Shown here: positions 3,461 to 44,047 of the stretch, piece by piece
How the letters are laid out: the number at the start of each line of letters is the position of its first letter
How positions within the stretch are numbered: position 1 is the stretch's first letter
DNA from: Desulfobacterales bacterium
Lineage (GTDB): Bacteria > Desulfobacterota > Desulfobacteria > Desulfobacterales > JAHDSC01
NCBI GenBank assembly: GCA_016931455.1
Contig: JAFGES010000005.1
Span: 1-60,777 of the forward strand
Direction of reading: 5' to 3'
Length of the DNA: 60,777 nucleotides
The notes under the pieces: generated by a model
Told to the model about the DNA's origin: nothing
Database searches by the model: none
Seen by the model: only the letters and a program-made list of their open reading frames with translations
Position numbers and translations under genes: made by a program

Positions 3461-3476
3461 ATTGGCTCCATTTGAT

Positions 3477-4133: not shown

Positions 4134-4189
4134 TTTTATGCCCCACCCATTGGGTCATCTTTTTTGGTTTTTTTCCCTGCTCTCAAAAT

Positions 4190-5648: not shown

Positions 5649-6077
5649 ATTTTTTCTCTCCTCCGTTTATTAATATTTACTATGAAATTTTCACTTGAAC
5701 TTTTTGAATTGCCTTATCAATTTTAACTTTTAATGAGTTCATTTTCATATGATTCGTGAAAAAAAATGTTGGAAGATGTCAACCCGTTGTACGATCATTT
5801 TTAAATCGCATTTTATAAATTGTAGATGCATAGTTCATACCAAAATTATATTTTAAATATTAAGATTAATTTCAAGTTGTTATAATATGTTAAAAAAATC
5901 TGCATCCCATTTTCTTTGAAATGGATTCCATATTATGGAAAATTTTTCATAATATGAATTGCAAGCACTTAACAAAGTCTGCCTTTCTTTTCTTAGAAGA
6001 AAATGTTAGTTTTTAAAGCAAATTTTTGTAGCAGATTTCAAAAAATTTTTCATGTAAAAACATTCGGATCTGATGCG
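5649..6077. other. AT-rich spacer with an imperfect palindrome
   Basis: This stretch lies between divergent genes, the small minus-strand gene and plus-strand murJ, so it should hold both promoters. An imperfect inverted repeat with ATATTATG and CATAATAT arms sits at about 5928-5958. No coding frame is supported, apart from a possible N-terminal extension of murJ from ATG 6003. Confidence 0.5.
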
Positions 6078-27745: not shown

Positions 27746-27820
27746 GCGGGAATAACTCAGTGGTAGAGTGCGACCTTGCCAAGGTCGAAGTCGCGGGTTC
27801 AAATCCCGTTTCCCGCTCCA
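27746..27820 (+). tRNA. tRNA-Gly (anticodon GCC)
   Basis: A complete cloverleaf of 75 bases including an encoded CCA end. The acceptor stem GCGGGAA pairs with TTCCCGC, the T arm contains GGTTCAAATCC, and the anticodon GCC lies at 27778-27780 in the loop TTGCCAA. It forms a pair with the Cys tRNA nine bases downstream. Confidence 0.97.
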
Positions 27821-27829
27821 TTTTTACCG

Positions 27830-27904
27830 GGCGGCATAGCCAAGTGGTAAGGCAGTGGTCTGCAAAACCATTATACACCAGTTCGAATCTGGTTGCCGCC
27901 TCCA
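27830..27904 (+). tRNA. tRNA-Cys (anticodon GCA)
   Basis: A 75-base cloverleaf with encoded CCA. The acceptor stem GGCGGCA pairs with TGCCGCC, the T arm holds GTTCGAATC, and the anticodon GCA is at 27862-27864. It is cotranscribed with tRNA-Gly and followed by a strong terminator. Confidence 0.96.
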
Positions 27905-27978: not shown

Positions 27979-29121
27979 TTATCTTCTCCATATTCTTTGT
28001 CTTTTTTCTTGAACATATCTGTACCATATCCAAAAAAAAGAATAGATGTAGTGTCCTATAACTTTAAGATTTCTTGGGAAAGGAGGCAAGTTTTTGAAGA
28101 TTCGTTTCGTACCATATCGCTTATTTTTGAACATAAATATTAAAAGCAAAGGATGCAACGTCCAATCAAAATTTATAAACTGTTCCAAGATATTTTTATT
28201 ATTGAAAAATATCTTCGTGAATATTTTGCTGATAGGGTCAATATCGAGAGTAGACATAAGGTTGAAATTGGAAAGCCTATATGTAATATAAGACATCCAA
28301 TAGAGGGGAATATCAAGCTGAGAATCTCTGATACGGCTTATCATTTTGCCCCAGGAAGGGTTGTGATACTTGATCAAATAAAGGAAATCAGCAAGACTTA
28401 AAAGCTCATTGAAACCGTTTAGTGATGAGTGCCAGATAAGATAAATAAGAGCATCTTCCGGATGAAGCACATCGGCCTTTGTCCCAAAAAAATCAATCTC
28501 AACAGCTCGTTGCCGAAAGTCGTCCATATTTAGATTAACAGGAATATCGGGTGCTATCAAATGCCAATGCAACTCCACATGGAAGCAATTATCTTTTACC
28601 CTCTTTTGAAACGGGAGGTGGAAGTGAGATTCCCTGTATAGATGTTCCCCCATGGATCTATTATAAAACTGATAGCCCATCTGCTTTAAGACTAGTCCGG
28701 CTTCCTTAACTTCGTTTTTTTTTAAGAGTAGGTCTATGTCCCGTAGTGGACGAACTGCCGGGTTTTTATGATAAATCGTCTCAATAAAGGCATGGCCTTT
28801 TAGGACAATACAAGAAATTCCCCTCTCATTAAACACGCATAGGATCTTTTTAAGCTCTTCACCCATCATTATATTAGCCCTCGAAGTATAAACTAAGGAC
28901 ATTTCAAGGGCTCGAATGACCGGCTTCGGCACAAAGTTAAGTAGATCTAGTTGCTTCAAATTAGAGTATACCAATGGAGCAATTCGGTGGGCATAAGTCT
29001 TTTCTTGAAAATCCTTCCAATCGATTTCATCTGATAATAGCGCTTGGATTTCCAGTTTTTCAGTATCAGGATGAATAAGATTAAGGAAAAGTTTTTCCGT
29101 AACGCTGGAGACGTTCTTCAT
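27979..29121 (-). CDS. Nucleotidyltransferase family protein (NTP_transf_5 type) of the RiPP operon
   Basis: A 380-residue protein of the uncharacterised nucleotidyltransferase family (PF14907 type). The catalytic core is seen as CIVLKGHAF (Lys108, Gly109) followed by RPLRDIDLLL with the metal-binding Asp128 and Asp130; a helical C-terminal half ends in an aromatic, basic segment. Members recur in RiPP clusters beside HPr-kinase-like proteins, where one studied lasso-type system modifies an already phosphorylated C-terminal Ser. Here it is the last gene of the operon, two bases after the permease gene. A role in tailoring the peptide is inferred; the exact reaction cannot be told. Confidence 0.8.
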   Translation of the reverse strand: MKNVSSVTEKLFLNLIHPDTEKLEIQALLSDEIDWKDFQEKTYAHRIAPLVYSNLKQLDLLNFVPKPVIRALEMSLVYTSRANIMMGEELKKILCVFNERGISCIVLKGHAFIETIYHKNPAVRPLRDIDLLLKKNEVKEAGLVLKQMGYQFYNRSMGEHLYRESHFHLPFQKRVKDNCFHVELHWHLIAPDIPVNLNMDDFRQRAVEIDFFGTKADVLHPEDALIYLIWHSSLNGFNELLSLADFLYLIKYHNPSWGKMISRIRDSQLDIPLYWMSYITYRLSNFNLMSTLDIDPISKIFTKIFFNNKNILEQFINFDWTLHPLLLIFMFKNKRYGTKRIFKNLPPFPRNLKVIGHYIYSFFWIWYRYVQEKRQRIWRR

Positions 29122-29123
29122 AG

Positions 29124-29939
29124 CTAATATTGGATTAAACTGCCTTCCCTTTTTGCTGTCTTTACAGCGTATTTAAAGGCCGCAATACTAATAGGCATGA
29201 GAATAACGATAAACACAATGAGTAACCTTATCTGGGGCCATACGGTTTCGAACGTACACCCCTTCAAAAGCAAGAGCCGCATGGCTTCTAGGGCATGCGT
29301 AATGGGCAATAATACAGCACATTTTTGCAGGAAAGGGGGCAACACGAAGATAGGGAAATAGATGCCGCCGATAATGGTTGATGCACTACCAAATATCCAA
29401 TAGATAGGGTCTCCACGTTTGAAAACCATGATAAAACTGGCGGAAAGAATGCCTATCGCACAAAAAGCCATAATAGTTAAAAGCAGGACAAAACCGGCCG
29501 GAAGATAATTGCTCATTAATTTAGCATTAAAGAAAAAGGCACCTATGAGAAGATAAAGGACTACTCTTACCGTTGCATAAAAAAATCCCCACAAAGAAGA
29601 TCCGAATACAATAAGGGGTAGAGGTGTTGGGGTTACGAGGAGGGCTTCCAAAGTGCCTTTGAGTTGGGCATCCCGAATCGTGGAGGAAAAGCTGGTTAAT
29701 CCCAAGCTGTAATAGCTTGTGAAGGCAAGCCCTATCAGAACAAAAGAAAAGAAGTCACCTCCATACCGTTCCAGCTCTTTCGAGATTACCTGACCGAATA
29801 CCTTACTTAAAAAGAAGAAGATAGCGATAGAAAAAAATATGGATCCAATTTGCATAAAAAAAGAGAGCTTGTAACTTACGGCTTCAAGGAAGTCCTTCTT
29901 GACAAAGGAAATAACTTTTCTCAAGTTTTGTATTATCAA
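29124..29939 (-). CDS. ABC-2 type permease of the RiPP operon
   Basis: A 271-residue membrane protein with six hydrophobic segments in the ABC-2 permease arrangement. The segment SFVLIGLAFTSYYSLGLTSFSSTIRDAQLKGTLEALLVTP carries the family-typical cytoplasmic loop in which EALLVTP follows a conserved Gly-Thr. Together with the ATPase encoded just upstream (four-base overlap) it should form the exporter of the mature peptide or an immunity pump. Confidence 0.88.
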   Translation of the reverse strand: MIIQNLRKVISFVKKDFLEAVSYKLSFFMQIGSIFFSIAIFFFLSKVFGQVISKELERYGGDFFSFVLIGLAFTSYYSLGLTSFSSTIRDAQLKGTLEALLVTPTPLPLIVFGSSLWGFFYATVRVVLYLLIGAFFFNAKLMSNYLPAGFVLLLTIMAFCAIGILSASFIMVFKRGDPIYWIFGSASTIIGGIYFPIFVLPPFLQKCAVLLPITHALEAMRLLLLKGCTFETVWPQIRLLIVFIVILMPISIAAFKYAVKTAKREGSLIQY

Positions 29940-30919
29940 TTTACGACCTGCTCAAATACCTCATTTAATGACAGTTCCTTAGGTGTACAAGCAAATATAC
30001 TCACTCTTTCACTAACAAGTCGGTTGAGAACGGAAGAAATAAACTCTTCGCCGCTCAATGTCACTTCCAGAGTCATAAGCTCATTTATGTATGAAATAAT
30101 ATTAGCCTCACAGACTCCATTCATCTTCAGAAGTTGCTTAAAAACATAATCGCTTTCAACCTTTAGTTTCAAGTGAAATTTTTTTTTCCCTTCCAATTTT
30201 TCCTTTATTTCACCTAATTTGCCTATTGTAACGATTTTTCCTTGAGAAAGAATAGCGAGCTTGTCACAAAGGTACTCGGCTTCTGAGAGGTCATGAGTGG
30301 CTAAAAGAATCGTTTTTTTCTGCTCACCTGACAGCTCTTGTTTTACAAACTTTTGGAGGCGTAGTCTGCTGAGAGGATCTAAACTTCTCGTGGGTTCATC
30401 CATCAGCAGTATCTGTGGATTATAGAGTAAGCTTCGGGCAATAGAAAGCCTTTGCTTAAAACCGGTTGAATAATTCATAAACGGTTTATCCACCTCTTTT
30501 TTTAGAGCAAGAAGATCTACAAGATAGTTGATCCTTTCTTTTGCTTGGTTATTTGAAAGATTGTAGAGCGCTGCAAAGAAAGAAAGGTTTTGCCTTCCGG
30601 TAAGCCGCCAATAAAAACTCCTTTCTTCACTTGTGGTATAGCCGATAAACTTTTTTATTTCTTTCGGGTGGCGATAGAGATCAAACCCATTTATTAAAGC
30701 GGTTCCGGAGTCAGGAAGGATGAGGGTGCTTAAAATCTTCGCCAAGGTGGTCTTACCCGCTCCATTGGGGCCGAGGATGCCGAAAATTTCGCCTTTTTTC
30801 ACCTCAAGTGAAATGCCTTTTAAGGCTTCTACAGATGGCTTCCGCCAAGACAGAATGTTTTTGTATCCCGTTTTTTTAAACTGTTTTTTGAGTTTCACAG
30901 CTTCAATAGCGAAAGACAT
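29936..30919 (-). CDS. ABC transporter ATP-binding protein of the RiPP operon
   Basis: A 327-residue ATPase of the drug/peptide export type. Walker A GPNGAGKTT is at residues 50-58, the signature is YSTGFKQRLSIARSL (a variant of LSGGQ), Walker B is ILLMDEPTRSLD and the switch His lies in LLATHDLSEAE. An extra 90-residue C-terminal domain follows, as in many ABC-2 exporters. The start is 92 bases after the peptidase gene and its stop overlaps the permease start. Confidence 0.92.
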   Translation of the reverse strand: MSFAIEAVKLKKQFKKTGYKNILSWRKPSVEALKGISLEVKKGEIFGILGPNGAGKTTLAKILSTLILPDSGTALINGFDLYRHPKEIKKFIGYTTSEERSFYWRLTGRQNLSFFAALYNLSNNQAKERINYLVDLLALKKEVDKPFMNYSTGFKQRLSIARSLLYNPQILLMDEPTRSLDPLSRLRLQKFVKQELSGEQKKTILLATHDLSEAEYLCDKLAILSQGKIVTIGKLGEIKEKLEGKKKFHLKLKVESDYVFKQLLKMNGVCEANIISYINELMTLEVTLSGEEFISSVLNRLVSERVSIFACTPKELSLNEVFEQVVN

Positions 30920-31011
30920 AAGGAAATATACAATCCAATCTAAGGTAAAACAATATTATATGCCATCAATCTGCTTCAAAAATCCATTTACGATTTATAC
31001 CCATGGGACAT

Positions 31012-31572
31012 TCATATTGTCAGTCTAATCAATTTACTGTTTATTTTTAATATCCAATATTGATATTTCGGCATTTTGTGTGCCAATATATAGAAAACAG
31101 ATATAATGATATTAATAAAAAAGCTCTTCTTTTTCTTTAGGTTGATAATATAGTTTGGAGTTTCAATAATCTCAACACGACCCAGAATACACTTTTTATG
31201 GATAAGGGTTGGTATGGAAAATTTGTCTCCCCCTTGAAGTAAATATTCTTTTCTTTTTTTAAGAACTCTATGTACGATAAATTTCGCCTTGGACCTGAAA
31301 ACTATTAAGTCAAATAGCCTTACTTGCTCAAAATGACAACTTTTGACAAGTATGCGGGCACCGGCAGGGATCATGGGAGACATGCTACCTGATTTTGTGT
31401 TAAGCCAAGCCTTGCCGTTTTCTCTTAAATAGTTCTCCCAAAGCCGCTGGGTTCCCTGTTTGGTTAACATGTTAACAAAATCTGTACTCAAATCTTCCTG
31501 TAAAGTAACCCCAAAAGTTGAATTATCACCCCGCAAGGCACGTCTCTTTGATATTGCCGAAATCTCCTGCAA
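31012..31572 (-). CDS. S26 signal-peptidase-like protein of the RiPP operon
   Basis: A 186-residue protein (from a TTG start; a later in-frame ATG would give about 152). The peptidase S26 box is NTKSGSMSPMIPAG with candidate nucleophile Ser63, and FIVHRVLKK supplies His101. A Ser-His arrangement is typical of the SipW/ER-type S26B subfamily, as opposed to the Ser-Lys dyad of standard bacterial LepB. QGGDKF is a degenerate box E that lacks the usual Asp. A hydrophobic segment lies at about 131-146. Gene position next to the precursor suggests that it removes the leader peptide, perhaps during export. No general lepB context is present. Confidence 0.75.
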   Translation of the reverse strand: MQEISAISKRRALRGDNSTFGVTLQEDLSTDFVNMLTKQGTQRLWENYLRENGKAWLNTKSGSMSPMIPAGARILVKSCHFEQVRLFDLIVFRSKAKFIVHRVLKKRKEYLLQGGDKFSIPTLIHKKCILGRVEIIETPNYIINLKKKKSFFINIIISVFYILAHKMPKYQYWILKINSKLIRLTI

Positions 31573-31573
31573 G

Positions 31574-31600
31574 CGCTCGGTGCTTCGGCGGTACCTAGCG
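31574..31600 (-). promoter_or_regulatory. Imperfect hairpin between precursor gene and downstream genes
   Basis: CGCT-C-GGT and ACC-T-AGCG pair with one mismatch around a loop that itself holds GC-TTCG-GC. It lies in the 82-base gap between the precursor stop and the peptidase start. Such hairpins often protect or partly terminate the message so that the precursor is made in excess over the enzymes downstream; that role is inferred. Confidence 0.35.
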
Positions 31601-31654
31601 GGGCTTAGTAGTTTACCTCACCAGCGAAATCTTTATCCTACCATAATGCTTGGA

Positions 31655-31795
31655 TTATGAGCACGGGGGACATAATCCGAAGAACGGCTGTAATTGTGGA
31701 ACTGGGCTGGTTTGATATTCCCCGTAAACACCAAGCTCAATTTCCTCTGTCCTAATCGCCGGTTTTTCATAAATCTCTCTCTTGTTTTCTTCCAT
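31655..31795 (-). CDS. Candidate RiPP precursor peptide (46 residues)
   Basis: A very short gene with an ATG at 31793-31795 and an AAAGGAGAT ribosome site eight bases upstream, lying in the otherwise empty gap between the radical SAM and peptidase genes. The N-terminal half is charged and contains KPAIRTEEIELGVYG (residues 11-25), a leader of the form KPxIxxEEIxLGxYG as seen in peptides recognised by PqqD-type domains. The C-terminal half is uncharged after residue 26, proline-rich (P31, P33, P37, P43, P44) and ends PFFGLCPPCS. Cys42 and Cys45 are its only cysteines and Ser46 is the last residue. It starts five bases after the radical SAM stop, so the two are translationally close. Similarity to a database peptide could not be tested. 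Confidence 0.85.
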   Translation of the reverse strand: MEENKREIYEKPAIRTEEIELGVYGEYQTSPVPQLQPFFGLCPPCS

Positions 31796-31800
31796 TGCTA

Positions 31801-32880
31801 TTATCTCCTTTCCTTTTTAGTTATATAGCCTTTGTGATTTGATTCCCGACAAGCAGGAGAAATCAAAAGGTTTTCATGGCAATAGGCCCTCCATCCAGCT
31901 TGTTCGCATGCGATAGGTGATGGTGCCAGCAAATTTCCGGTCTCTATATAGGCAGTACCCGGACATCTTGTACAAAATCGAGCCAATTGGCACTGAGCGC
32001 ACTCCTTCAGGTCGGATGCTTTGATGGTTCTTACGGCATGTAGGTTACTGTTTTCAGCGTGCCAGATGTCTCTGAACCTCTTTTGCTTAAGGTTTCCCAA
32101 GTTTATGGGCATGAGAATGCAAGGTTGGACATCTCCATAGGGTGAGATAGAGGCAACCGCCTTTCCTGCTTTGCAGGGCCCCACATGCTCATTCATATGT
32201 TCCATTAAACAATTCATCGGCTCATCCGGATAAAGGAAGTTAATCCTATCCTCCCATGAGATCTGATATTTCTGCGGATCATTGTTTCCATCTATTTTAG
32301 GTATGATATCAGCCCCCGTATTGGGATGGACCCCCAATTTCCGCGCTAGATTTTTAATTTCTTGATATTCCGTTATATTTTTCTTCATAAGGGTAGTCTT
32401 TATAATTACCGTTATACCTTTTTCTGCAAGTTTCTCTATAGTACTTACGGCCCTTTCAAATGATCCCAGGGTCCTTGTGATAAAGTCATGTGTTTCGGGT
32501 CGGGCTCCTAAGAGACTGATTTCCACGCCTAACGGCTTTAGTTCTATCAGCTTATCGATTTCTTTATCTGAGATCAGCGTCCCATTTGTCAGCAAAAAAA
32601 GGAAAAACCCCTTTTCCCTCGCATACCGGGCAATATCAAAAAAATCCCTTCTTACAAAAATCTCCCCGCCCGTGAAAGTAAGATATAATGTGCCCAATTC
32701 AACTAATTGGTCTAAGATGCCTTTAATTTCTTTGAAGGTAAGCTCTCTTTGTTTTGTATTCACAATGTAACAATGTCTGCAAGAGAGGTTGCACCGGTAG
32801 GTTAGCTCAAACAGGACAAATAAGGGAATACATTTCTCAACACACTTATTTTCCAAAATTTTTTTGATACTAATGGTCAT
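31801..32880 (-). CDS. Radical SAM/SPASM peptide-modifying enzyme
   Basis: A 359-residue radical SAM enzyme. The SAM cluster motif is CNLSCRHC with Cys30, Cys34 and Cys37, followed by the GGE motif FTGGEIF. The C-terminal third is a SPASM/twitch region with CKAGKAVASISPYGDVQPC and the pair CAQCQLARFCTRCPG plus a final Cys near CEQAGW, enough ligands for two auxiliary clusters. SPASM enzymes in this setting cross-link or epimerise ribosomal peptides (sactionine or ranthionine thioethers, C-C links). The PqqD gene directly upstream and the precursor directly downstream mark it as the tailoring enzyme of this operon. Confidence 0.9.
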   Translation of the reverse strand: MTISIKKILENKCVEKCIPLFVLFELTYRCNLSCRHCYIVNTKQRELTFKEIKGILDQLVELGTLYLTFTGGEIFVRRDFFDIARYAREKGFFLFLLTNGTLISDKEIDKLIELKPLGVEISLLGARPETHDFITRTLGSFERAVSTIEKLAEKGITVIIKTTLMKKNITEYQEIKNLARKLGVHPNTGADIIPKIDGNNDPQKYQISWEDRINFLYPDEPMNCLMEHMNEHVGPCKAGKAVASISPYGDVQPCILMPINLGNLKQKRFRDIWHAENSNLHAVRTIKASDLKECAQCQLARFCTRCPGTAYIETGNLLAPSPIACEQAGWRAYCHENLLISPACRESNHKGYITKKERR

Positions 32881-32885
32881 ATTTG

Positions 32886-33170
32886 CTAACTTTTTTCTGT
32901 AATGCGGAGCAGTTTCATATCGAATAATTTATTGATGAACTCCAAGCAATCAGCTTCAGCGGTTTCTTCATCCGTATCGAATTTTTTAAGAATTTTTGCG
33001 ATAATGCCCTTGATGGGTATTCTGCCGTCAGCGCACTCCCATATAAGTGTACCCACCTTGTTGATCATGTGAACCTTTTTTCCGTCTTCGGTCATTAAAA
33101 AGGTTTCACTATCAATGAGTCGAGAGACCACGCCGCTTGATCCAACTATACATTTTGATAGAATTTCCAT
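32886..33170 (-). CDS. PqqD-family peptide chaperone (RiPP recognition element)
   Basis: A 94-residue protein with the PqqD winged-helix pattern: an N-terminal beta hairpin (a strand with TFLMTEDGKKVHMINKVG), the conserved LIWECADG turn, then helices with EEIxxxI-like spacing and a final leucine-rich segment LFDMKLLRI. PqqD domains bind the leader of the precursor and hand the core to the radical SAM enzyme. It is spaced two bases from the kinase gene and five bases from the radical SAM gene. Confidence 0.88.
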   Translation of the reverse strand: MEILSKCIVGSSGVVSRLIDSETFLMTEDGKKVHMINKVGTLIWECADGRIPIKGIIAKILKKFDTDEETAEADCLEFINKLFDMKLLRITEKS

Positions 33171-33172
33171 GT

Positions 33173-34036
33173 TTACCTCTTAACATTTAGTTCAATAAAT
33201 TTCCAGATACCTTCATCCGGCACAAAAGAGAGCTCATAGCATGGCACTTCCGATACTAACTGTGCACAAAAGTCAGTCATCTTGAAGAGGTGTTCGGCAC
33301 TGTACTCAGTGTGCAAGGGTAGTGGAACAACAACCTCTCTCAATACAAAACGAACGAATTCTGCGGGTTTTAAAGGTCTTAAAAAATTACTCCGGCCGTG
33401 CCGGATGCAAAAAATTGCTTTCAGGGGCACGGATCCATTTACTTTTGTCTTGAATTCACCATTAAAGGGTGTACTGCGAACTTGATACGGATATCGCACA
33501 TTCCTTTTCCCGATAATTACCATCTCATCATTTAAGACGTTATAGTTATCAGCCAACAGACCGATAGTGGATTTTCCGCTTCCGGATGGACCTGTGAAGA
33601 CATATCCCTGGTCGCCGACATCCACGGCACAGGCGTGTAAGAGATAATTGTTGGGCTTTTCATTGGGATATCTTTCTTCAAGCAGGGTATAATAGAGGTG
33701 GTAAAAAAATTGTTCGAAAATCCTGGCATTTTTTAACAGACCATATTTTACTTCGACTTTCGCCCGTTTATTTATCAGATCCAGAGAACCACGGAGTAAT
33801 CCCGAATGGAAATCAAAATGGTTGCCGTCGACTCTCCTATCTATCATCAGTGAGCAGGGAAGCTCAATCCACTGTTGGTGCGGGACAACTGTTAAGTTAA
33901 TGAAAATGTCGGGCTCCTCTTCAGATAAAAATCCTTGGTAATATTCTTTGACGGAAGTAGCCCAATTCGCCTCCTTGAATCTTAGTTCACAGCAGAATTG
34001 GCCGATCTGTAATCTGAATTCCTTCGGATTCTGCAA
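33173..34036 (-). CDS. HPr kinase-like protein, first gene of the RiPP operon
   Basis: A 287-residue protein whose second half matches the HPr kinase/phosphorylase fold. YLLHACAVDVGDQGYVFTG leads into Walker A GPSGSGKST (149-157), and NVLNDEMVII holds the candidate catalytic Asp170. The first half is a family-specific N-terminal domain, different from HprK of the phosphotransferase system, and no PTS genes are nearby. In lasso peptide clusters the homologous ThcoK-type kinase phosphorylates the side chain of the precursor's C-terminal Ser; the precursor here also ends in Ser. The start is a TTG behind GGAGGG. It opens the operon after a 100-base leader. Confidence 0.82.
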   Translation of the reverse strand: MQNPKEFRLQIGQFCCELRFKEANWATSVKEYYQGFLSEEEPDIFINLTVVPHQQWIELPCSLMIDRRVDGNHFDFHSGLLRGSLDLINKRAKVEVKYGLLKNARIFEQFFYHLYYTLLEERYPNEKPNNYLLHACAVDVGDQGYVFTGPSGSGKSTIGLLADNYNVLNDEMVIIGKRNVRYPYQVRSTPFNGEFKTKVNGSVPLKAIFCIRHGRSNFLRPLKPAEFVRFVLREVVVPLPLHTEYSAEHLFKMTDFCAQLVSEVPCYELSFVPDEGIWKFIELNVKR

Positions 34037-34464: not shown

Positions 34465-35802
34465 CTATAGGCTCAGCCTGCCCTGTTTCCATAGCGTTAC
34501 CGCGCTGTAGGTCCTGGCCCAGAAGTTGGCTTTTTCTACGGCCGGATATTTGAAAAAATCCTGAGTCCAGTGAAACGAGGGATTCTGATACAAATCGCGC
34601 AGAATATCGGCAATATGCCGGGGGTTCCACTCGGCTCGAATTAAAAAATCATAAATCAGGCCGATCATGTTTTTCGGTTGCAGTGCTTTTGGATTGGGAT
34701 GATAGAGGATATCCCTGGACCAGTCCGGAACCTTTGTCTCCCGCTTGGCATGTTCCAGGGCTTTGCCTGCGGGCATGTCTTCCTGCCCGTCAAAATCCTG
34801 ATGGAACCGGTACAGATCAGAGGCTTTGTATTCATGAATCAGGTCAATCAGGGCGTCATTGGAACAGGGAATGTGGCCGGAAAATTTTCGGGCGTGCTCC
34901 GAGGCGTTTTCCAGATTCCACATGGTGTTAAGAATCTTTTCCATATCGGTTTCTTCAATTGCGTGTGAGCCGTCAAAGCAAGTTCCGATCACATCTACCA
35001 GGGGGCCGTGGCCCTCGATGCCGTATTTTTCCAGGTTCTTTTTGTGAAGACTGAAGGGGCTTCGGATCGAACGCATGAACGGGGAACCCTCGTTCCATGA
35101 GTTGTCAAAATTGATGCTGCAATCCAGGGCATCTGAAATAAAGACGGGAAACATTCCCCGGGATTCGTTGTCCTTGAATGCCTCCATGGTAACCAGGGAA
35201 ATGTATTCGGCCAGTTTTCCCAGCCCGCTGAACGCACGGGCCGCGTGGTGTGAAACGCCGTTGCGGCGGCGGATATCGTGCGGATCCCGGTAATCACAGG
35301 CCCGGATCAGGTCCTGTTCAAGGTAGCCGATTTGAATCAGCTGGTCGGTTGCGCGCTGCCCCAGGAGGTTGTGAAACAGGATATGGCCTCCGGAGGGGGT
35401 ATAATCCAGCAGATAGGGAAGGCCCCGGGAACGAAAAAAATTTTCGAGAAAACGGATAACAGGGATCAGATGGGAAAAGAGAGCTTTCTGGCTTTCCGGA
35501 CTGGTATACAGCAGGTGGTTCTCGTCCTTTAGAAACAGTTCAAAATCTATCGGCATCAATACGCTTTGAGACTGTTTGCCGATGATGGGGAGATGCACCT
35601 GGAGGCCGCGGTCGACCGTCAGTGCCTCAAGACGCTCTACGGGCTCGGCCGTGGCCGGAAAGGCCGGATCTGCTCCGGTGGCGGTCAGTTCATTGCCGGT
35701 GGCGATCACATAATCACTGAACCGAAAACAGTGTTTCAGCCTGCCGGCAACGCTTTGATAATAATCATGAACGTTCATGGACCGGATTTGCCTTTCTGAC
35801 AT
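34465..35802 (-). CDS. Archaeo-eukaryotic primase-like protein (tentative)
   Basis: A 445-residue protein without a clear full-length relative that I recognise. Three stretches fit the primase-polymerase (AEP) pattern: an acidic strand LMPIDFELFLKDE (Asp86, Glu88), DYTPSGGHILFHNL (Ser137, His140; compare the S-G-x-H motif), and IRSPFSLHKKN (246-256), which strongly resembles the RxPxSLHxK motif of PriS-type primases. The C-terminal 170 residues are helical with no recognised domain. It is a single gene, by eye richer in G+C than the RiPP operon beside it, suggesting acquisition. A DNA-repair or element-borne polymerase is possible; a function is not assigned. Confidence 0.5.
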   Translation of the reverse strand: MSERQIRSMNVHDYYQSVAGRLKHCFRFSDYVIATGNELTATGADPAFPATAEPVERLEALTVDRGLQVHLPIIGKQSQSVLMPIDFELFLKDENHLLYTSPESQKALFSHLIPVIRFLENFFRSRGLPYLLDYTPSGGHILFHNLLGQRATDQLIQIGYLEQDLIRACDYRDPHDIRRRNGVSHHAARAFSGLGKLAEYISLVTMEAFKDNESRGMFPVFISDALDCSINFDNSWNEGSPFMRSIRSPFSLHKKNLEKYGIEGHGPLVDVIGTCFDGSHAIEETDMEKILNTMWNLENASEHARKFSGHIPCSNDALIDLIHEYKASDLYRFHQDFDGQEDMPAGKALEHAKRETKVPDWSRDILYHPNPKALQPKNMIGLIYDFLIRAEWNPRHIADILRDLYQNPSFHWTQDFFKYPAVEKANFWARTYSAVTLWKQGRLSL

Positions 35803-36022: not shown

Positions 36023-37147
36023 TTATTCAGGTGCTATAAGTCCGTAATGCCCCATCATTCGTTTAATTCTCACCTTAGTCGGTTCCGGTGGGAAAGTCAC
36101 AAACCGCCATATGAAGTCTTTACCAGTAGTGGCTAAGTCTTTGAATCTTGCAATTTCACCTTCGTTTTCAAACAAATAACCACCCAGTATTTCCTCACTT
36201 CCTTTTTTCGTTGGGTCAAAATAAACGAGTATGTGCTTGTTAAAATCATGCTTCTCATATTGGGTTAATATGCCTTTTATTTTCCCTCTCGCCGGATGCT
36301 GGTACAGGTGGTTGATATCACCGGCAGGATACAAGGTTGAGTAGAAACCAATGCTGTATGTGGTGACCTTATTGAGTGTCATGGTTAGGGCGACTTCTAA
36401 TAGTGCGTGGTGACGAGCGCTAACCAGTGTCGCCAGTGCAAGGAGTTGGTAAATTGGATCGTAGGGGATTTTACAACGCCTTGCAAAACGCTCAACGAAA
36501 AACAGAGAGTCGGCCGTGGTGCCTGAAATATCTGCACCCACAGGCAAGCCGAATGCATTGTCTATCTTCCGGACGGTCGACCAGCTCAATATCGAGCTCT
36601 TAGGCTCTACCCCCTTCCCTGCCTGCTTAAAGTCAATACCGTGCACATGGGCCTCTTCCTGCCAAAGTTTATGCCATTCCGGGATTTGCACTTGTTTTTT
36701 GCCGCGTACACGATAACGATCTGGGTCCCAGATCATATCTTTGCCTTGAAAATCCGTCATAGGAGCCGGGCGGTATGTCTTTTTGAGCGTGTCTATCTGC
36801 GCGCCGCTACCCCCAGTCTTTCCTAATTGCTCAACTACCATACCGTAAAGACGAATAATATCAGAACATTCTGCAGCTTTTAGGGATTGGTATTGATTGC
36901 CGATATGTGCTAAAGTACCCTTTGTTTGCCAAATGTTGAGCATCTTTTCTTCTTTGCAGGCATCAAGGATCACCATTTCCTTCATGTTATTCATATCGTC
37001 TAATGCCCTTTTGGCCATTTTCCTCAAAGGTACGATAAGAGTATCTTCTTTATCGAACGTAGCCACAAGTTCGATTGCGAGCATCTGCTCCAATTGGAAT
37101 CTTTGATTTTTCAGTGTTTGAATATCAATTCGCCTTAATTCTCTCAT
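36023..37147 (-). CDS. Hypothetical protein, 374 residues
   Basis: I do not recognise the family. The first 90 residues are helical and charged. The centre contains SWSTVRKIDNAFGLPVGADISGTTADSLFF followed by a small-residue-rich helical region (LLALATLVSARHHALLEVALTM). The C-terminal third reads as alternating strands and helices (TYSIGFYSTLYP, HILVYFDP, DFIWRFVTFPPEP). No signal peptide or membrane anchor is evident. It is isolated, bordered by 220 and 310 bases of noncoding DNA. Confidence 0.6.
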   Translation of the reverse strand: MRELRRIDIQTLKNQRFQLEQMLAIELVATFDKEDTLIVPLRKMAKRALDDMNNMKEMVILDACKEEKMLNIWQTKGTLAHIGNQYQSLKAAECSDIIRLYGMVVEQLGKTGGSGAQIDTLKKTYRPAPMTDFQGKDMIWDPDRYRVRGKKQVQIPEWHKLWQEEAHVHGIDFKQAGKGVEPKSSILSWSTVRKIDNAFGLPVGADISGTTADSLFFVERFARRCKIPYDPIYQLLALATLVSARHHALLEVALTMTLNKVTTYSIGFYSTLYPAGDINHLYQHPARGKIKGILTQYEKHDFNKHILVYFDPTKKGSEEILGGYLFENEGEIARFKDLATTGKDFIWRFVTFPPEPTKVRIKRMMGHYGLIAPE

Positions 37148-38034: not shown

Positions 38035-38110
38035 TCAAATGAACCGGCATTCCTTTATGGAATGCTGTTATTATGGACATTACCGGGACAACTTGATAGA
38101 AAGGTGCCGC

Positions 38111-38452
38111 ATGAAGAAAAATTTAACAATTCGAATGATTCTCTTTATCATCTCCATCTGGGCAGCGCTTGCATTGACGGGGTGTGATGAGATTGGCAAA
38201 CTGATCAGTCCGGCAACGGGACCGAGACAAGGGTCTGAAGAAGCGGAGCAAGCGCCGGCAGTGTCGGTGGTGACGGTCAACACGCAGAAGGTTACGCTGA
38301 CCACCGAATTGCCGGGCCGAACCGCGCCCTTTCGCATTGCGGAAATCAGGCCTCAGATCAGCGGCCTGATACTAAAACGTCTGTTCACCGAAGGTTCCAA
38401 TGTCACGGCCGGACAGGTGCTTTATCTGATCGATCCGGCTCCCTTTCAGGCG
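38111..38452 (+). pseudogene. acrA-like periplasmic adaptor, 5' part (split by intron)
   Basis: This encodes the first 114 residues of an RND efflux adaptor: a lipoprotein signal with lipobox LALTGC, then SVVTVNTQKVTLTTELPGRTAPFRIAEIRPQISGLILKRLF and the barrel-sandwich start VTAGQVLYLIDPAPFQA. The frame then enters the group II intron and stops at 38461. The 3' part resumes at 44048 in the same phase: joining codon 38450-38452 to codon 44048-44050 gives PAPFQA-TLDNALAAL, which is the usual family sequence at this point. The interrupted gene therefore measures 411 residues. ATG 38111 was chosen by the signal peptide. Confidence 0.88.
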
Positions 38453-38523
38453 ATCGAGTAGGAGGAGCCCTTTCGGGCTCCGTCCTCTCACAGAACCGTG
38501 CGTACGGGTCCGTACACGGCTCC
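38453..38523 (-). ncRNA. Group II intron domains V and VI
   Basis: Domain V reads GAGCCGTGTACGG on one side and CCGTACGCACGGTTC on the other, with the catalytic-triad-type stem. Domain VI pairs GGAGCCC with GGGCTCC around a GAAA tetraloop and has an unpaired A seven bases from the 3' end that would be the branch point. Both are on the minus strand. Confidence 0.85.
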
Positions 38524-39384
38524 TCATGTCATCCTGATCCATTGCTTGAGCGAAAACCAATGGGGGTTGGCCATACTCTGATCTGATCTTATATACTGTC
38601 CCATTTGATTTATAAACCACGGCACCGAATATGCCTTGGCCATAGCGAATTTTCCTGAAATCGCCCAGCGGCCATCGTTGTTATAAACGGTATTAGCCGC
38701 ATACGAACGACTCAGTCCACGCTTTATCAGCTTGCTGAATAAATGACGTCTTCTCTTTTGTTGCCCAATGATCCGTGACCTCAGTCTCCTTCGCACATGG
38801 GCTTCCAATTTTAACAGCTGGCCGGGGTATTGGGTCATAAGGTAATACTGTGACCATCCCATATACCATGTATTGATCTTTCTTAGGGTTTCTTCCAGCG
38901 TTATATGCGTCCCCCGCGGTGTCAATTCCTTCACTTTTGCCATTGCCCGGCTCATCGATACCACCGATATGGCAATCGTTCCTGCAATGATGGTAATACC
39001 CAAAAATTTAACATACTTGGATAAAGCCACCTTGCTCTTTTCTTGGTTCACCACGAGTTTTAACTTCGTGCTGATAAACTTACTGATGCTGTTCATTACT
39101 CGTTGGGCTGCCTTCGGGCTGCTTACGAATATGTTACAGTCATCGGCAAAACGGCAAAATTCAAGTCCCCTTTTCTCCAGTTCCTTGTCAAGCTCGTCAA
39201 GCACCACGTTACTCAGTAGCGGACTTAACGGCCCACCTTGGACGGTTCCTTCATCTGTGGGACTGTAGAGGCCATCTTTCATCACCCCGCTTCGCAGCGT
39301 CATTCCGATAATACGCAAGATGCGTTTATCGTTGATATGCTGTGATAGCCGGAAGATTAGGCGGTCGTGGTGAATTCGATCAAA
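38524..39384 (-). pseudogene. Group II intron reverse transcriptase/maturase, C-terminal part
   Basis: This carries the end of the reverse transcriptase palm and the maturase domain. From the junction the frame reads FDRIHHDRLIFRLSQHIN, then GTVQGGPLSPLLSNVVLDELD, the active-site motif FCRFADDCNIF, and a thumb/X domain (GWSQYYLMTQYPGQL, RRLRSRIIGQQKRR). No HNH endonuclease domain follows. The N-terminal part lies 3.5 kb away at 42917-43380; the two were one gene before the serine-recombinase element inserted. Confidence 0.9.
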
Positions 39385-39386
39385 GG

Positions 39387-39911
39387 AAAATACGACACAC
39401 TACCCACCTCGATGGTTATCCCCAAAAAGTAAAAATTACTCGAAATCATCACCCATTATACGGAAGGAGTTTAGGAATTATTGGCTGGCACCACAAAGAT
39501 GAGATTTTATATTTGACGCTGATCTTACCAGATGGTAGCCGGTCTTTCATTCCCGCCTCTTGGACAAACATTAATGAAATTTGTCCTCAAAAATTCACAC
39601 AAACAGATGGTCGTATTCAAAGCGATCTCATTGCAACTGCATCAAATCTACTAAACCTTAGAAAGAAAATAGATGCGATTTTTGATAAACTCCCTTTTTT
39701 AGAAATAAACAGAAAAAATATTTCAAGAAAGGAAAATCATGCTGGCAAAGCAACTGAGCCTTTGGCCGACCCAAGAAGAAGCGTCTGTCGTACCAATAAT
39801 TTGGGAAAACCTCGAAAAACAACAACAAGATCGAATCATAACCTCTCTTGCAAAGCTGATCAACAAAATTGTTTGCCCACAACAGTCACCCCAATCAAGA
39901 GAGGTCAATAA
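39387..39911 (+). CDS. DUF5372-like protein of the serine-recombinase element
   Basis: The frame encodes VKITRNHHPLYGRSLGII, LYLTLILPDGSRSFIPASWTNI, which matches the DUF5372 pattern (thI-HPlyG, a beta-rich core, a PxxWT motif). Such small proteins accompany this group of recombinases. No ATG is present at the 5' end; the frame stays open from the element boundary, so the true start (possibly non-standard near 39430) is undecided. The last 50 codons overlap the next gene and look non-native, so the functional product may be about 110 residues. Confidence 0.5.
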   Translation, partial: KIRHTTHLDGYPQKVKITRNHHPLYGRSLGIIGWHHKDEILYLTLILPDGSRSFIPASWTNINEICPQKFTQTDGRIQSDLIATASNLLNLRKKIDAIFDKLPFLEINRKNISRKENHAGKATEPLADPRRSVCRTNNLGKPRKTTTRSNHNLSCKADQQNCLPTTVTPIKRGQ

Positions 39912-39921
39912 TGAGCGATAA
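39739..39921 (+). CDS. Small conserved partner of the serine recombinase
   Basis: A 60-residue protein beginning MLAKQLSLWPTQEEASVVPI and continuing with a helix containing LEKQQQDRIITSLAKLINKIV. Short proteins of the form WxxLPxxxRxxxxxxLAxLI are regularly encoded immediately before recombinases of this kind. An AAGGAAAATC site precedes the ATG and its end overlaps the recombinase start by 11 bases, so it should be co-translated. Its role in the recombination reaction is unknown. Confidence 0.6.
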   Translation: MLAKQLSLWPTQEEASVVPIIWENLEKQQQDRIITSLAKLINKIVCPQQSPQSREVNNER

Positions 39922-42112
39922 TCAAAAAATTAAATCTTCCCATTTTCAACGAGAAGCCTATGTATATATTCGGCAATCAACTGCAGCTCAAGTTGAATAC
40001 AATCGGGAATCTACCGATAGGCAATATAAGTTAAAGGATCGGGCTGTAAGTTTAGGGTGGCCTAAAAATAAAGTTAAAATTATTGATGAAGACCTGGCGC
40101 AATCAGGAACTGACAGTTCAAAGCGTAACGGTTTTACAAAAATGGCATCCGATGTTGCCCTCGGAAAGGTGGGTTTGATTCTTTCCATTGAAGTATCAAG
40201 GGTCGCCCGCAATAACTCCGACTGGTATCGCCTGCTTGATTTGTGCAGTGTCACCGATACTCTGATCGGCGATGCCGATGGACTATATCATCCAGGTCTT
40301 TTTAATGATCGGCTTTTATTGGGTATGAAGGGAACAATGGCCGAAGCTGAGTTACATGTAATCCGCGCCAGACTCGAAGGTGGTATTCGGAACAAGGCTG
40401 CCAGGGGAGAGTTACGCCGCGGATTGCCTGTAGGTTATATTTGGGGACAGCAGGACGGTGAAGTCCTAAAACATCCGGATCAAGCTGTAACAGGTGCCAT
40501 AAATACTGTTTTTGAAAAATTTATCCAGTTAGGGTCAGCTCGGCAGGTCTGGCTCTGGTTTCAATCCAAAAAACTCCTTTTCCCCCTACAATCCAGCACA
40601 TTATCTGAAATTAAATGGATTGCAGCTTCTTATCACGCCATCCACTCAGTTTTAACCAATCCGACCTATGCAGGCGCTTACTCTTATGGTAAAACACGAC
40701 AAGAATGTTTTTTGGATGAAAATGGGCAAGTAAAAAAACGAGTTAAACGCCTGCCTCAATCCAAATGGGCCGTATTTATCCATGACCACCATGAAGGCTT
40801 TATAAATTGGGAGACCTACGAGATGATTCAAGATCGAATTTCAAAAAATACTCGACCAGTTTCCCACAAGGACTCCGGAGCTATCCGGGAAGGAGCAGCG
40901 CTGCTGCAAGGCATAGCTACCTGTGGCCGATGTGGGCGGCGCCTCAGAGTTTACTATCAAGGTAAAAATTCTACACCGGGTTACTACTGCGCAGCCAGTA
41001 ATATTGTTAAGGGTAGAGCGGAATATTGCATGCGCATTGGAGGTCGAAAAATTGACGAAGCAGTATCTGAAGCTTTTCTTGATGCAATCACACCAGCGGC
41101 AATTGAGGCCGCTGTGCTTGCTGAAAACAATATTGAAGCTGAACATGACGCGGGTCTTAAACAGTGGCGTCTTCAGATTGAACGGCTTCAATATGAGGCT
41201 GATCGGGCAGAACGTCGCTTTCGTTCTGTAGAACCTGAAAATCGGCTTGTGGCTCGAACCCTTGAAAACCAGTGGGAATCGTGCCTCAATAAACTCCAGG
41301 AAGCAAAAAATGAATTTAATCGTCGCAAGAGCCAACGTCCAGGATGTTTAAATTCTGAGCAGCGCGCTCACATTGGAACTTTAAGCAAAGATATTAAGCT
41401 GGTTTGGCAAGCACCGACAACCACTGCACGCGACAAAAAAGAACTGCTCCAAACTCTGTTGCAAGAAGTAAATATAAAAGTGGATCGCACCTCCAAAAAA
41501 GTCCATTTAATAATTCGTTGGCAAACAGAGGCCGTATCCGAAATTAACATTGATTTACTCAACCGTTCTGTCCCTGCTATCCGTACAAAACAAGAAACCA
41601 TTGATCTTGTAGGTAGACTCGCTGTTCATTATTCAGATGCTGTAATTGCCGGAATTCTGAATCGTCAGGGGAGACGAACGGCACGTGGGCATCGTTTTAC
41701 TGCCAATAGAGTTGGAAACTTACGGCGTCATTGGAAAATTCCAAAATTTGATGGTTCCTCAATTCAATCAGACTGTGGGGAATTGGTAACTATCAAAAAA
41801 GCTGCTGACATTCTTGGTATCGCACAATCTACGGTTCATCGTTGGCTTGCTGATGGATTTATCGCAGGTGAACAGATTACACCTGGAGCACCATGGCAAA
41901 TCAGAATGACAGATGAAATTCGATCACGTTTTAAAGAAAAAGCTCCTAGTGGTTATGTGACAATGAAAGAAGCAAAGAGCATTCTAGGCGTCTCGCGTCA
42001 AACGGTGATGCAATATATAAAGACGGGAAAGTTATCAGCCGTTCATGTATCTCGCGGTAAACAAAAAGGATTGTATATTAAAGTACAAAATAACCAACTT
42101 GAACTTTTTTAA
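39911..42112 (+). CDS. Large serine recombinase (integrase/transposase)
   Basis: A 733-residue site-specific recombinase. The N-terminal resolvase domain (about 10-160) has the catalytic Ser in AYVYIRQSTAAQ and Arg residues in SIEVSRVARN and an EAELHVIRARLEGG helix. A recombinase domain follows (about 175-290, with RGLPVGYIW), then a zinc ribbon CGRCGRRLRVYYQG with paired cysteines further on, a long coiled coil, and two C-terminal MerR/excisionase-like helix-turn-helix repeats (VTIKKAADILGIAQSTVHRWL and VTMKEAKSILGVSRQTVMQYI). ATG 39911 has an AGAGG site; it appears intact and should move the element. Confidence 0.92.
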   Translation: MSDNQKIKSSHFQREAYVYIRQSTAAQVEYNRESTDRQYKLKDRAVSLGWPKNKVKIIDEDLAQSGTDSSKRNGFTKMASDVALGKVGLILSIEVSRVARNNSDWYRLLDLCSVTDTLIGDADGLYHPGLFNDRLLLGMKGTMAEAELHVIRARLEGGIRNKAARGELRRGLPVGYIWGQQDGEVLKHPDQAVTGAINTVFEKFIQLGSARQVWLWFQSKKLLFPLQSSTLSEIKWIAASYHAIHSVLTNPTYAGAYSYGKTRQECFLDENGQVKKRVKRLPQSKWAVFIHDHHEGFINWETYEMIQDRISKNTRPVSHKDSGAIREGAALLQGIATCGRCGRRLRVYYQGKNSTPGYYCAASNIVKGRAEYCMRIGGRKIDEAVSEAFLDAITPAAIEAAVLAENNIEAEHDAGLKQWRLQIERLQYEADRAERRFRSVEPENRLVARTLENQWESCLNKLQEAKNEFNRRKSQRPGCLNSEQRAHIGTLSKDIKLVWQAPTTTARDKKELLQTLLQEVNIKVDRTSKKVHLIIRWQTEAVSEINIDLLNRSVPAIRTKQETIDLVGRLAVHYSDAVIAGILNRQGRRTARGHRFTANRVGNLRRHWKIPKFDGSSIQSDCGELVTIKKAADILGIAQSTVHRWLADGFIAGEQITPGAPWQIRMTDEIRSRFKEKAPSGYVTMKEAKSILGVSRQTVMQYIKTGKLSAVHVSRGKQKGLYIKVQNNQLELF

Positions 42113-42561: not shown

Positions 42562-42916
42562 AAATGAAAGTTGATGTGTATACTAAAAATCGAAACTATA
42601 AACGATATTAAGTATATAAAAAAACAATATATTATAAACTGAAAAAGTTTTTTTATCTTTGGAAGATCCGTTTTATTGGAAAAATATGGATTACCCGGCA
42701 AGGCCCCATAAACGTGCAAAAATGGTAACGTAAATCATAATGTAGGAAGTTATGACTAAGCCCTAGAATTGTTTTGCAACGTGTAAAGTTAGAATATTCA
42801 GCTATGCATCATGACAACGGTTTCATAAAAATAGATATACATATCAAGATATTGGACAAATAATACAGATTTTATTTAACTATTCATGAAAGGGAGGGCA
42901 ATATGGCGAGGGATCC

Positions 42917-43380
42917 AAAAATTTCGAAAGATCAATATCAACCACATACTCCTTCCCGCTTTTTACAATCTTCTGTGCAGCTTCAACCGCTTGTCGCTGG
43001 TTGCGTTTCGGTCGAAATCCGTAGCTGTTGTCGGAAAATAACGGGTCGAAAATCGGCTCTAAAATCAGCTTCAGAGCTGCTTGCACCACTCTGTCTCGAA
43101 CACAAGGTATTCCTAATAGTCGGACTCCTGCATTCTTTCCCGGTTTAGGTATTTCCACCCGAAGAACTGGAGATGGTTTATATTGCCATTTCTTTAGATC
43201 TTCGCTGAGTTGCCTCAAATTGTTGTCAAGGTCTGCCTCATAGTCCTTTATGGTGACACCATCAATACCGGGAGCCCCCTTGTTCTTCTTTACCGCCCTG
43301 AAACCTTCATATAGAAACTCAATAGAATAAAGCTTCTCAAAAAGGCTTCTTCGGTCAACGAATAGTTCCAATTGTTCCAT
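42917..43380 (-). pseudogene. Group II intron reverse transcriptase, N-terminal part
   Basis: The first 154 codons of the intron-encoded protein: RRSLFEKLYSIEFLYEGFRA, KGAPGIDGVTIKDYE, the PKPGKNAGVRLLGIPCVRDRVVQ motif (RT0-RT2 blocks), DNSYGFRPKRNQRQAV and VVDIDLSKF where it is cut. Beyond 42917 the frame continues into the inserted element for a dozen foreign codons and stops at 42880. ATG 43378-43380 is preceded by AAGAAG. Confidence 0.9.
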
Positions 43381-44047
43381 TTCACTTCTTTTGCATCATC
43401 ATTTCATCGATCCGCGCTACCATCGTACGGCATCGGTTATACGTCCTTTGCCCGATGATTGTTCCTATGGCTGATCTCATAATGACAGTTTATAATGGTC
43501 AATGTAACACGGTTAACATGTTCCGCCCTTCGCCTCCATCCAATGAGCACTCATCGAATACTTACGCATTGTTTTATCCTCTGATCCGGTCACCCGGATC
43601 GTCATCGGCAACACGTTTTACGACTACTACGGCTTCATCTGCAGACCCTCTGCCCATAACGGTCACATCTTTGTTCCGCTTAGGTAACATTGTCGCAGTT
43701 ACAATGTTCCGGCACAGACGGCCCTTCACCGGGTAAGATCGATAGCTGTTTCATTGCCCACCTACCTCCTCTACCCACAGGGATACGGAAAGGATATAGG
43801 GCTTTAGTAGTCAGTGGTACCACGCCCTCCCTGTAAGCCTACCAGAGGTTCACACCAAGTTTAGGTGGCAATTTCGGCTACGGCTTCCTTCAGATTCCTC
43901 ATTGGCGAACTCCCCGCTGTTAATCCCTTTTCCTGAGCAGCCGGAAGAAAGTTTCTTCGGACACCCTTGCCTTCGCCTACTTGTTACCTCCTTTCAGGGT
44001 CCAAGACTGGAATCCCACCAGTTAGTTATCGACCATGCCGGTCGCAC
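43381..44047 (-). ncRNA. Group II intron 5' RNA region (domains I-III)
   Basis: This 667-base stretch lies between the intron start GTGCGACC and the reverse transcriptase start. It holds no supported protein gene on either strand and includes the typical early segment CTAACTGGTGGGATTCCAG followed by CTTGGACCCTGAAAGG. Its size agrees with the scaffold domains I-III. Confidence 0.7.

Follow-up and report, generated by a model that had tools for sequence, protein, structure and literature searches.

A probable radical SAM peptide operon with genes like those of lasso- and LPP-type phosphate tailoring

Linear Polyphosphorylated Peptides (LPP), described in May 2026 from the lpp cluster of Paenibacillus alginolyticus, are restricted to Bacillota according to passages of the report (PMC13381572). 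These passages describe a SipW-like peptidase, LppS, which needs its Ser, His and Asp residues and cleaves only in the presence of the RiPP recognition element (RRE; RiPP, ribosomally synthesized and post-translationally modified peptide), an RRE that binds YxxP, and an HprK-like kinase that places several phosphates on core Ser3. The exporter is MsbA-like, the clusters often adjoin paeninodin-type lasso clusters, and the term “radical SAM” occurs 0 times in the main text (PMC13381572). In paeninodin, as described in passages of two reviews, such a kinase phosphorylates a C-terminal Ser that is “extremely conserved” where the kinase is present, and in pseudomycoidin PsmN, or possibly a host enzyme, decorates the phosphate with one or two hexoses (PMC8498205, PMC9266682). 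Here we analyze an operon at positions 27979-34036 of a 60,777-nucleotide stretch of contig JAFGES010000005.1 (the whole stretch is referred to as the window). The operon is best read as a radical-SAM-armed relative of the LPP and paeninodin-type pathways, built of ordinary parts in a combination that was not found in the literature searched.

All genes of the operon are read from the minus strand and, except around the precursor gene, are either 2-92 bases apart or overlap by 4 bases. Their order on that strand is HprK-like, PqqD, radical SAM/SPASM, precursor, S26-like, ABC ATPase, ABC-2 permease and NTP_transf_5, as follows:

33173..34036, minus strand: HprK-like kinase, presumed to act on Ser in tailoring (TTG start after GGAGGG; conserved His134, GPSGSGKST and Asp170)
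32886..33170, minus strand: PqqD-type RRE (Pfam PqqD, 50.7 bits)
31801..32880, minus strand: radical SAM/SPASM enzyme, presumed primary peptide modifier (Pfam Radical_SAM 91 bits, SPASM 40.5 bits)
31655..31795, minus strand: precursor peptide gene, 46 amino acids (AGGAG Shine-Dalgarno sequence and ATG; match to the leader model)
31012..31572, minus strand: S26-like (SEC11/SipW-type) peptidase, presumed leader peptidase (conserved Ser63, His101 and Asp116; SEC11C match)
29936..30919, minus strand: ABC exporter ATPase, DrrA-like (ABC_tran 101.5 bits; drrA model 259 bits, cut-off 312)
29124..29939, minus strand: ABC-2 type exporter permease (ABC2_membrane 47.3 bits)
27979..29121, minus strand: NTP_transf_5 nucleotidyltransferase, presumed to act in further phosphate tailoring (PF14907, 158.5 bits)

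The start of the S26-like gene is uncertain, i.e., TTG at 31572 or ATG at 31470. The initial annotation had described seven co-directional, tightly spaced genes of the named families, and coordinates, Pfam matches and family profiles confirmed this description. Its view of a complete RiPP operon stood in so far as the operon looks RiPP-like, but an eighth gene, that of the precursor at 31655-31795, had been overlooked. The Radical_SAM, SPASM, PqqD, ABC_tran, ABC2_membrane and NTP_transf_5 matches of the window were above the Pfam cut-offs, with the nucleotidyltransferase being the sole match to PF14907 in the genome. Of 78 NCBIfam models compared with the window proteins, the 25 best all stayed below their cut-offs.

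The precursor gene begins 5 bases past the radical SAM stop codon, and its 46 codons specify MEENKREIYEKPAIRTEEIELGVYGEYQTSPVPQLQPFFGLCPPCS. Within the leader, YEKPAI corresponds to the [Y/W]xxPx[hydrophobic] motif that lasso-type RREs bind, with YxxP at Tyr9-Pro12, and the core ends in FFGLCPPCS. The candidate core residues are Cys42, Cys45 and Ser46, plus Ser30. This peptide is odd in that both Cys residues lie at the extreme end (CPPCS) and Ser30 stands where relatives carry their first Cys; because of this replacement, Ser30 is a possible phosphate acceptor, as an alternative to Ser46. No Pfam or NCBIfam model matched the precursor at E 0.1. A riboswitch or attenuator in the gap between the precursor and S26-like genes was considered and rejected: the one Rfam match there had 15.9 bits for a gathering score of 55, and the fold had a z-score of -1.75, with 12 of 200 shuffles equally stable.

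The operon resembles the LPP clusters in most of its parts. It has an S26-like Ser-His-Asp peptidase (SpI-like in LPP, the likeness to LppS being one of description), a discrete RRE (PqqD, 50.7 bits) together with a YxxPx[hydrophobic] leader (YEKPAI), an HprK-like kinase (by family profile and conserved residues) beside an NTP transferase, and an ABC exporter, and in both systems a lasso cyclase is absent. The two differ, however, in that the window exporter consists of a separate DrrA-like ATPase and ABC-2 permease rather than an MsbA-like protein, and in that a radical SAM/SPASM enzyme and a Cys-bearing core are added. The full LPP leader YxxPxVLxHQxIxFETxxS is not found either; the window has YEKPAIRTEEIELGVYGEYQTS, without the HQxIxFET part, the FET portion of which was seen in L092 and L093, two loci of the survey described below that belong to the clade of the window radical SAM protein. 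The phospho-acceptor of the window is predicted to be C-terminal, whereas that of LPP is core Ser3. The host, finally, probably belongs to a phylum other than Bacillota, since the window encodes a pump of the AcrB type (1222.6 bits) together with an efflux protein of the outer membrane (171.9 bits), which suggests a diderm; if this is so, the LPP-like gene set extends beyond Bacillota. Given the exporter type, the lack of the full leader motif and the presence of another primary enzyme, we did not file the window as LPP. By analogy, it likely works like LPP plus a radical SAM step, which is a likeness of parts and not membership. The view of the initial annotation that a kinase plus a nucleotidyltransferase is chiefly a feature of lasso clusters is out of date, as passages of the LPP report place five of the operon functions (S26-like peptidase, discrete RRE, HprK kinase, NTP transferase and exporter) at the core of the LPP clusters of Bacillota (PMC13381572).

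With paeninodin and pseudomycoidin, as described in passages of the two reviews, the window shares a PqqD-type B1 protein with a [Y/W]xxP leader, an HprK-like kinase, a C-terminal Ser and a nucleotidyltransferase (PMC8498205, PMC9266682). The paeninodin-type likeness lies in Ser46 and the HprK-like kinase, and a terminal Ser recurred in 49 of 54 loci of the survey. In contrast to lasso clusters, the operon lacks the Asn-synthetase-like C and transglutaminase-like B2 enzymes, as the initial annotation had correctly noted, and has a radical SAM enzyme and an S26-like peptidase instead. Assignment as a lasso cluster was rejected, with B2 and C both absent from the operon. Across the genome, Asn_synthase gave four weak matches of 23-27 bits (cut-off 21), as against 128.6 bits for the true lasso C protein of locus L059, with B2 (PF13471) not being searched for genome-wide.

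It is probable that the operon produces an exported RiPP by joining radical SAM chemistry to lasso/LPP-type phosphate tailoring, and the pairing of a radical SAM/PqqD module with kinase and nucleotidyltransferase genes, as originally pointed out, was borne out. We infer the chemistry, the order of the steps and the product as follows. The PqqD protein would bind the YEKPAI leader of the 46-residue precursor, and the radical SAM/SPASM enzyme would modify the core, most likely by forming one or two crosslinks from Cys42 and Cys45. Our best guess, from the SPASM architecture and the core Cys residues, is that such crosslinks would be thioethers rather than C-C bonds. By analogy with the known kinases, the HprK-like protein would phosphorylate a serine, most likely the C-terminal Ser46 with Ser30 as the alternative, perhaps repeatedly, and the NTP_transf_5 protein may add a hexose or nucleotide to the serine phosphate. 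Removal of the leader would fall to the S26-like Ser/His/Asp peptidase, with the cut expected, by analogy, close to residues 24-29, and export of the product to the ABC-2 pair. In view of what has been published on LPP, it is likely that the PqqD protein of the window binds the leader, that the S26-like protein removes it and that the HprK-like protein acts in phosphorylation.

The enzyme assignments differ in strength. In the radical SAM protein, the three radical-SAM Cys and seven C-terminal Cys were invariant in 15 of 15 aligned relatives, and among solved structures its family profile was nearest to SkfB (5.6e-33), followed by PqqE (9e-22). The mycofactocin (125.6 bits, cut-off 265) and PqqE (99.1 bits, cut-off 381) models of NCBIfam matched below their cut-offs, and a scan of contigs from named genomes gave a single match, in Blautia, at 22%. 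The best solved matches of the window PqqD were the lasso PqqD chaperone 9x90 (1.3e-7) and TbiB1 (1.4e-3); compared with lasso 9x90, the chain 9x8z, named “PqqD family protein” and presumably LppB, was a weak and more distant match (0.068). Taken singly, the S26-like protein was under the Pfam cut-offs (Peptidase_S26 19.7 bits, cut-off 22.9; S24 20.6 bits, cut-off 23.3). A 23-member profile of this family matched the signal peptidase subunit SEC11C at 1.9e-13, with Ser63, His101 and Asp116 invariant in 23 of 23 sequences. The HprK-like protein was also weak singly (Hpr_kinase_C 14.1 bits, cut-off 33.3; best NCBIfam model HprK_rel_A 27.5 bits, cut-off 200). Its 31-member profile matched the HPr kinase chains 1jb1 (6.7e-4) and 1ko7 (1.1e-3), with several generic P-loop chains ranking above these. 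The His and the P-loop Lys were invariant and the Asp near-invariant in the 31 sequences, and the upstream His, the P-loop and the following Asp were kept in nearly all of 78 aligned HprK-like proteins. Judged by these comparisons, the HprK-like identity is the weakest enzyme assignment of the operon.

The window operon is a member of a large family of such operons. We collected 107 stretches (L012-L118) around strong radical SAM or HprK matches in genomes of the same order, class and phylum, which with the window made 108 loci, and annotated them with profiles made from window and early-locus proteins. The counts that follow are conditional, as the loci were picked by radical SAM or HprK matches and many are cut by contig ends. 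A related radical SAM gene lay within 4 kb of an HprK-like gene in 56 of the 108 loci, and these 56 included PqqD in 53, the S26-like gene in 51, NTP_transf_5 in 17, a match to the ABC ATPase profile in 15 and an ABC-2 permease in 5. A precursor matching the leader model (E<0.01) was present in 52 of the 56; none was found in L087, L102 or L103, and L059 had a lasso precursor only, with which the count becomes 53. PqqD, S26-like, radical SAM and precursor genes were all within 6 kb of HprK in 46 loci. For this core, the neighborhood comparison proposed with the initial annotation thus does not refute its reading, but the whole set is rare: all seven families plus the precursor were found together in only four of the 56 loci, i.e., the window, L072, L099 and L101. 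The latter three come from three other genomes of two other families, and in L072 NTP_transf_5 (153.6 bits) and ABC2_membrane (44.2 bits) were above the Pfam cut-offs, with the S24/S26 protein just under. Present in a minority of clusters, NTP_transf_5 is most readily understood as an optional component.

The window radical SAM protein falls in a deep 19-member clade (support 100/100), together with L090 and L089 (44-45% identity), L092 and L093, L091 and L094, L102 and L103, L117 and others without HprK. L090, with a radical SAM protein 45% identical to that of the window, has the same gene order, i.e., HprK-PqqD-radical SAM-precursor-S26. In a sample of the class, a related radical SAM protein was detected at E<=1e-70 in 56 of 389 genomes, the kinase not adjoining in all. 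L102 and L103 carry HprK-PqqD-radical SAM without a precursor being found, and come from the same genomes as L091 and L094; these genomes also hold a radical SAM gene and a precursor without a kinase seen adjoining, so that action in trans is possible.

Precursors were collected with a leader-only model that covered 22 residues from the YxxP tyrosine onward, the C-terminus being unseen by it. The model was built from 35 seeds chosen by eye, including three added ones and excluding the LPP-like precursors without radical SAM and L087, and was run on 2807 small open reading frames (ORFs) and later on more. One seed (the second L080 row) is a spurious ORF, and leave-one-out recovery was 30 of 35 at E<0.01. 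When the window precursor was left out of the training, it was still the best small ORF of its locus (E 0.0091; next, 99). For the Ser count, the best precursor per locus at E<=0.1 was used. The raw count gave a last-residue Ser in 50 of 56 loci with radical SAM and HprK. L059 was dropped, its match being the lasso precursor of a neighboring lasso cluster, and L055, with its radical SAM match 5-6 kb off, was moved to the group without radical SAM, after which the count was 49 of 54. The non-Ser ends were L012 (Ile), L032 (Thr), L087 (Tyr; kept at E 0.07), L090 (Gly) and L117 (Asp). After removal of near-duplicates at a similarity of 0.7, terminal Ser stood at 43 of 49. The background was 8%, with terminal Ser in 99 of 1294 among the longer ORFs and in 229 of 2934 among the remaining small ones, and the binomial test gave 2e-41 with relatives treated as independent sequences. 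Core Cys was present in 54 of 54 precursors with radical SAM near, compared with two of eight in LPP-like clusters without it.

These eight clusters (L051, L055, L060, L064, L066, L081, L082, L083) have HprK and a WxxP precursor with no radical SAM gene near. All eight carry the larger kind of ABC exporter ATPase, whole or in part, seven an S26-like gene and five NTP_transf_5. The precursor pattern in these clusters is E[T/N]-x-[L/V]-...-S, as against EE-x-VL-xx-C in the radical SAM-type counterparts, and the segment 14-24 residues past the motif Tyr/Trp contains Ser in all eight and Cys in one (L082). Some of these genomes have a radical SAM cluster elsewhere, i.e., G042 (L060 and L031) and G316 (L051 and L044).

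Five further cassettes of PqqD, precursor and HprK (L075, L077, L079, L080, L084) have no adjoining radical SAM gene and keep the Cys and the terminal Ser, with NTP_transf_5 in four. Four of the five genomes hold a separate radical SAM-S26-ABC cluster without PqqD, HprK or precursor, i.e., G383 (L111), G087 (L018), G266 (L115) and G030 (L020), the last lying ~10 kb from its cassette on the same contig. For these four genomes, one pathway split in two is the likeliest explanation. The use of L075, L079, L080 and L084 as a control lacking radical SAM was consequently dropped, with radical SAM-S26-ABC pieces elsewhere in their genomes. In the split genomes the precursor has the form AVLGFCK...GS, NTP_transf_5 is present in three of the four, and some of the separate radical SAM, S26 and ABC pieces lie beside asparagine synthetase-like genes.

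At 3060-6766 of locus L059, a lasso cluster that looks complete and includes an HprK-like kinase (Asn_synthase 128.6 bits; Transglut_core3 79.8; PqqD 60.8; Hpr_kinase_C 24.0, with a cut-off of 33.3) stands directly beside a radical SAM/HprK/PqqD/S26 cassette, the same neighboring as is published, in passages of the report, for LPP and lasso clusters (PMC13381572). A nearby lasso-like precursor has the core GGAWDAKTEGSWWFFSWGPQPS.

A number of observations weigh against the joining of radical SAM chemistry to phosphate tailoring, or against parts of it. The HprK and S26 assignments depend, as judged by sequence, on family profiles. For the LPP NTP transferase LppN, no activity was seen according to passages of the report (PMC13381572), and NTP_transf_5 is present in only 17 of the 56 loci. 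A leader model without seeds of the window clade gave the window precursor an E of only 0.064, and missed the L091, L093 and L094 precursors at E<10, which a motif search had found. The early-core Cys is present in 53 of 54 radical SAM loci, the window with its Ser being the exception, and the closest relative, L090, ends in Gly, as L117 does in Asp. Terminal Ser was also found in five of five loci that have radical SAM and no HprK in the stretch; four of these are cut by contig ends, and L094 has no HprK in 12.5 kb. In the LPP-like clusters with HprK and no radical SAM, the terminal residue is other than Ser in seven of eight. Since only one of these eight ends in Ser, HprK alone does not set the terminal Ser. 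Terminal Ser accompanies the Cys-type precursor, which speaks against the simplest argument from the kinase, and the Ser-ending cassettes L075, L077, L079, L080 and L084 are not a clean control because a radical SAM cluster stands elsewhere in four of the five genomes. Position 194 of the HprK-like proteins (window numbering) was acidic in 52 of 55 terminal-Ser loci and three of 12 others (Fisher 9.8e-7, post hoc). It was rejected as a serine-choosing residue, with columns 113 and 147 parting the groups equally well, and is for that reason probably a clade signal.

One alternative is a plain radical SAM RiPP, sactipeptide- or ranthipeptide-like, with the kinase and nucleotidyltransferase acting elsewhere (regulation, immunity, cell-surface sugar) and the terminal Ser serving recognition by the radical SAM enzyme or the peptidase. 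Terminal Ser does follow the radical SAM/Cys-type precursor (49 of 54) better than HprK (one of eight), and the five Ser-ending cassettes without adjoining radical SAM are, in four of five genomes, accompanied by a radical SAM cluster elsewhere. The radical SAM and SPASM domains, conserved Cys and core Cys are shared with the sactipeptide/ranthipeptide maturases SkfB and AlbA. The window differs from these, however, in its kinase and nucleotidyltransferase genes and separate PqqD RRE, and no NCBIfam cut-off was reached among the 25 best models. Against a plain radical SAM RiPP, kinases of the same type act on the precursor in LPP and paeninodin, according to passages of the reports (PMC13381572, PMC9266682), and HprK adjoins the precursor even where radical SAM and S26 have split off (L075, L077, L079, L080, L084). 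We regard this explanation as unlikely.

A cofactor-type pathway that trims the peptide to a small redox molecule, as for PQQ or mycofactocin, could account for the matches of the radical SAM protein to the mycofactocin (125.6 bits) and PqqE (99.1 bits) models and to the PqqE structure, but sits so poorly with an export pair, a gene resembling a leader peptidase, strongly variable cores among relatives and the scores below cut-off of the 25 best NCBIfam models among 78 that it seems very improbable. SynChlorMet cassettes combine two radical SAM enzymes, PqqD and the HprK-like ScmC. The window likewise brings together PqqD, HprK-like and SPASM proteins, its proteins match the ScmC, ScmD and ScmE models of that set (NCBIfam TIGR04248-04251) at 18.1, 29.1 and 113.4 bits, and window-related clusters with two radical SAM genes do exist (L026, L027, L032, L049, L058). 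These scores are nevertheless far under the curated cut-offs of 125, 100 and 400, and ScmF is at 87.7 for a cut-off of 400. Even the two-radical-SAM locus L027 stays under 400 (ScmE 82.6, ScmF 77.9), and the window has a single radical SAM gene, not two, in a deep clade other than that of the two-radical-SAM loci. Assignment to SynChlorMet was accordingly rejected, and a member or degenerate remnant of this cassette family is hardly to be expected here; the name itself was not found in the open PubMed Central (PMC) literature. Some subgroups of the daptides, according to passages of the report, have secondary tailoring genes for radical SAM enzymes, nucleotidyltransferases or both (PMC10036551). 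The primary chemistry of these differs, and “HprK” and “kinase” are absent from the main text of that report (PMC10036551). In the open PMC literature, we found no report of HprK-type tailoring joined to a radical SAM RiPP.

Returning to the joining of radical SAM chemistry to phosphate tailoring, the operon links two kinds of modification on one leader/RRE module that are treated apart in the literature searched. A more specific proposal, which we put forward tentatively and hold to be somewhat doubtful, is that of a new RiPP class, common in one bacterial class, in which Cys residues would be crosslinked by radical SAM chemistry and the C-terminal Ser capped with a sugar- or nucleotide-bearing (poly)phosphate. 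If this were true, the early-core Ser acceptor of LPP would have been replaced by a Cys used by the radical SAM enzyme and the acceptor moved to the C-terminus, giving the motif contrast of VLxxS without radical SAM and VLxxC...S with it. The survey makes available dozens of precursors with a clear serine/cysteine pattern, and the clusters with and without radical SAM amount to a natural experiment on the residue used by each enzyme. The function of NTP_transf_5 in RiPPs could be probed on such substrates.

The surroundings of the operon hold several other elements. A recent island was considered and rejected, as the GC content of the operon (0.37-0.44) resembles that of its left flank (0.36-0.44), attachment sites not having been looked for. 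Two tRNA genes (27746-27901) lie directly past the 3' end of the operon and are a possible integration site. Upstream, the minus-strand genes at 34465-35802 (GC ~0.52, above that of the operon) and 36023-37147 had no Pfam match at E 0.01. Further on, pieces of a group II intron were found on the minus strand (Rfam domain V at 38453-38524 and D1-D4 at 43738-43909). The reverse transcriptase is in two parts, 42880-43380 and 38524-39318, on either side of a serine recombinase gene on the plus strand (39869-42112; Resolvase and Recombinase). The intron pieces precede an HlyD-type fusion protein gene (43967-44941), the beginning of which, judged by eye, seems to lie at 38039-38461, where there was no Pfam match.

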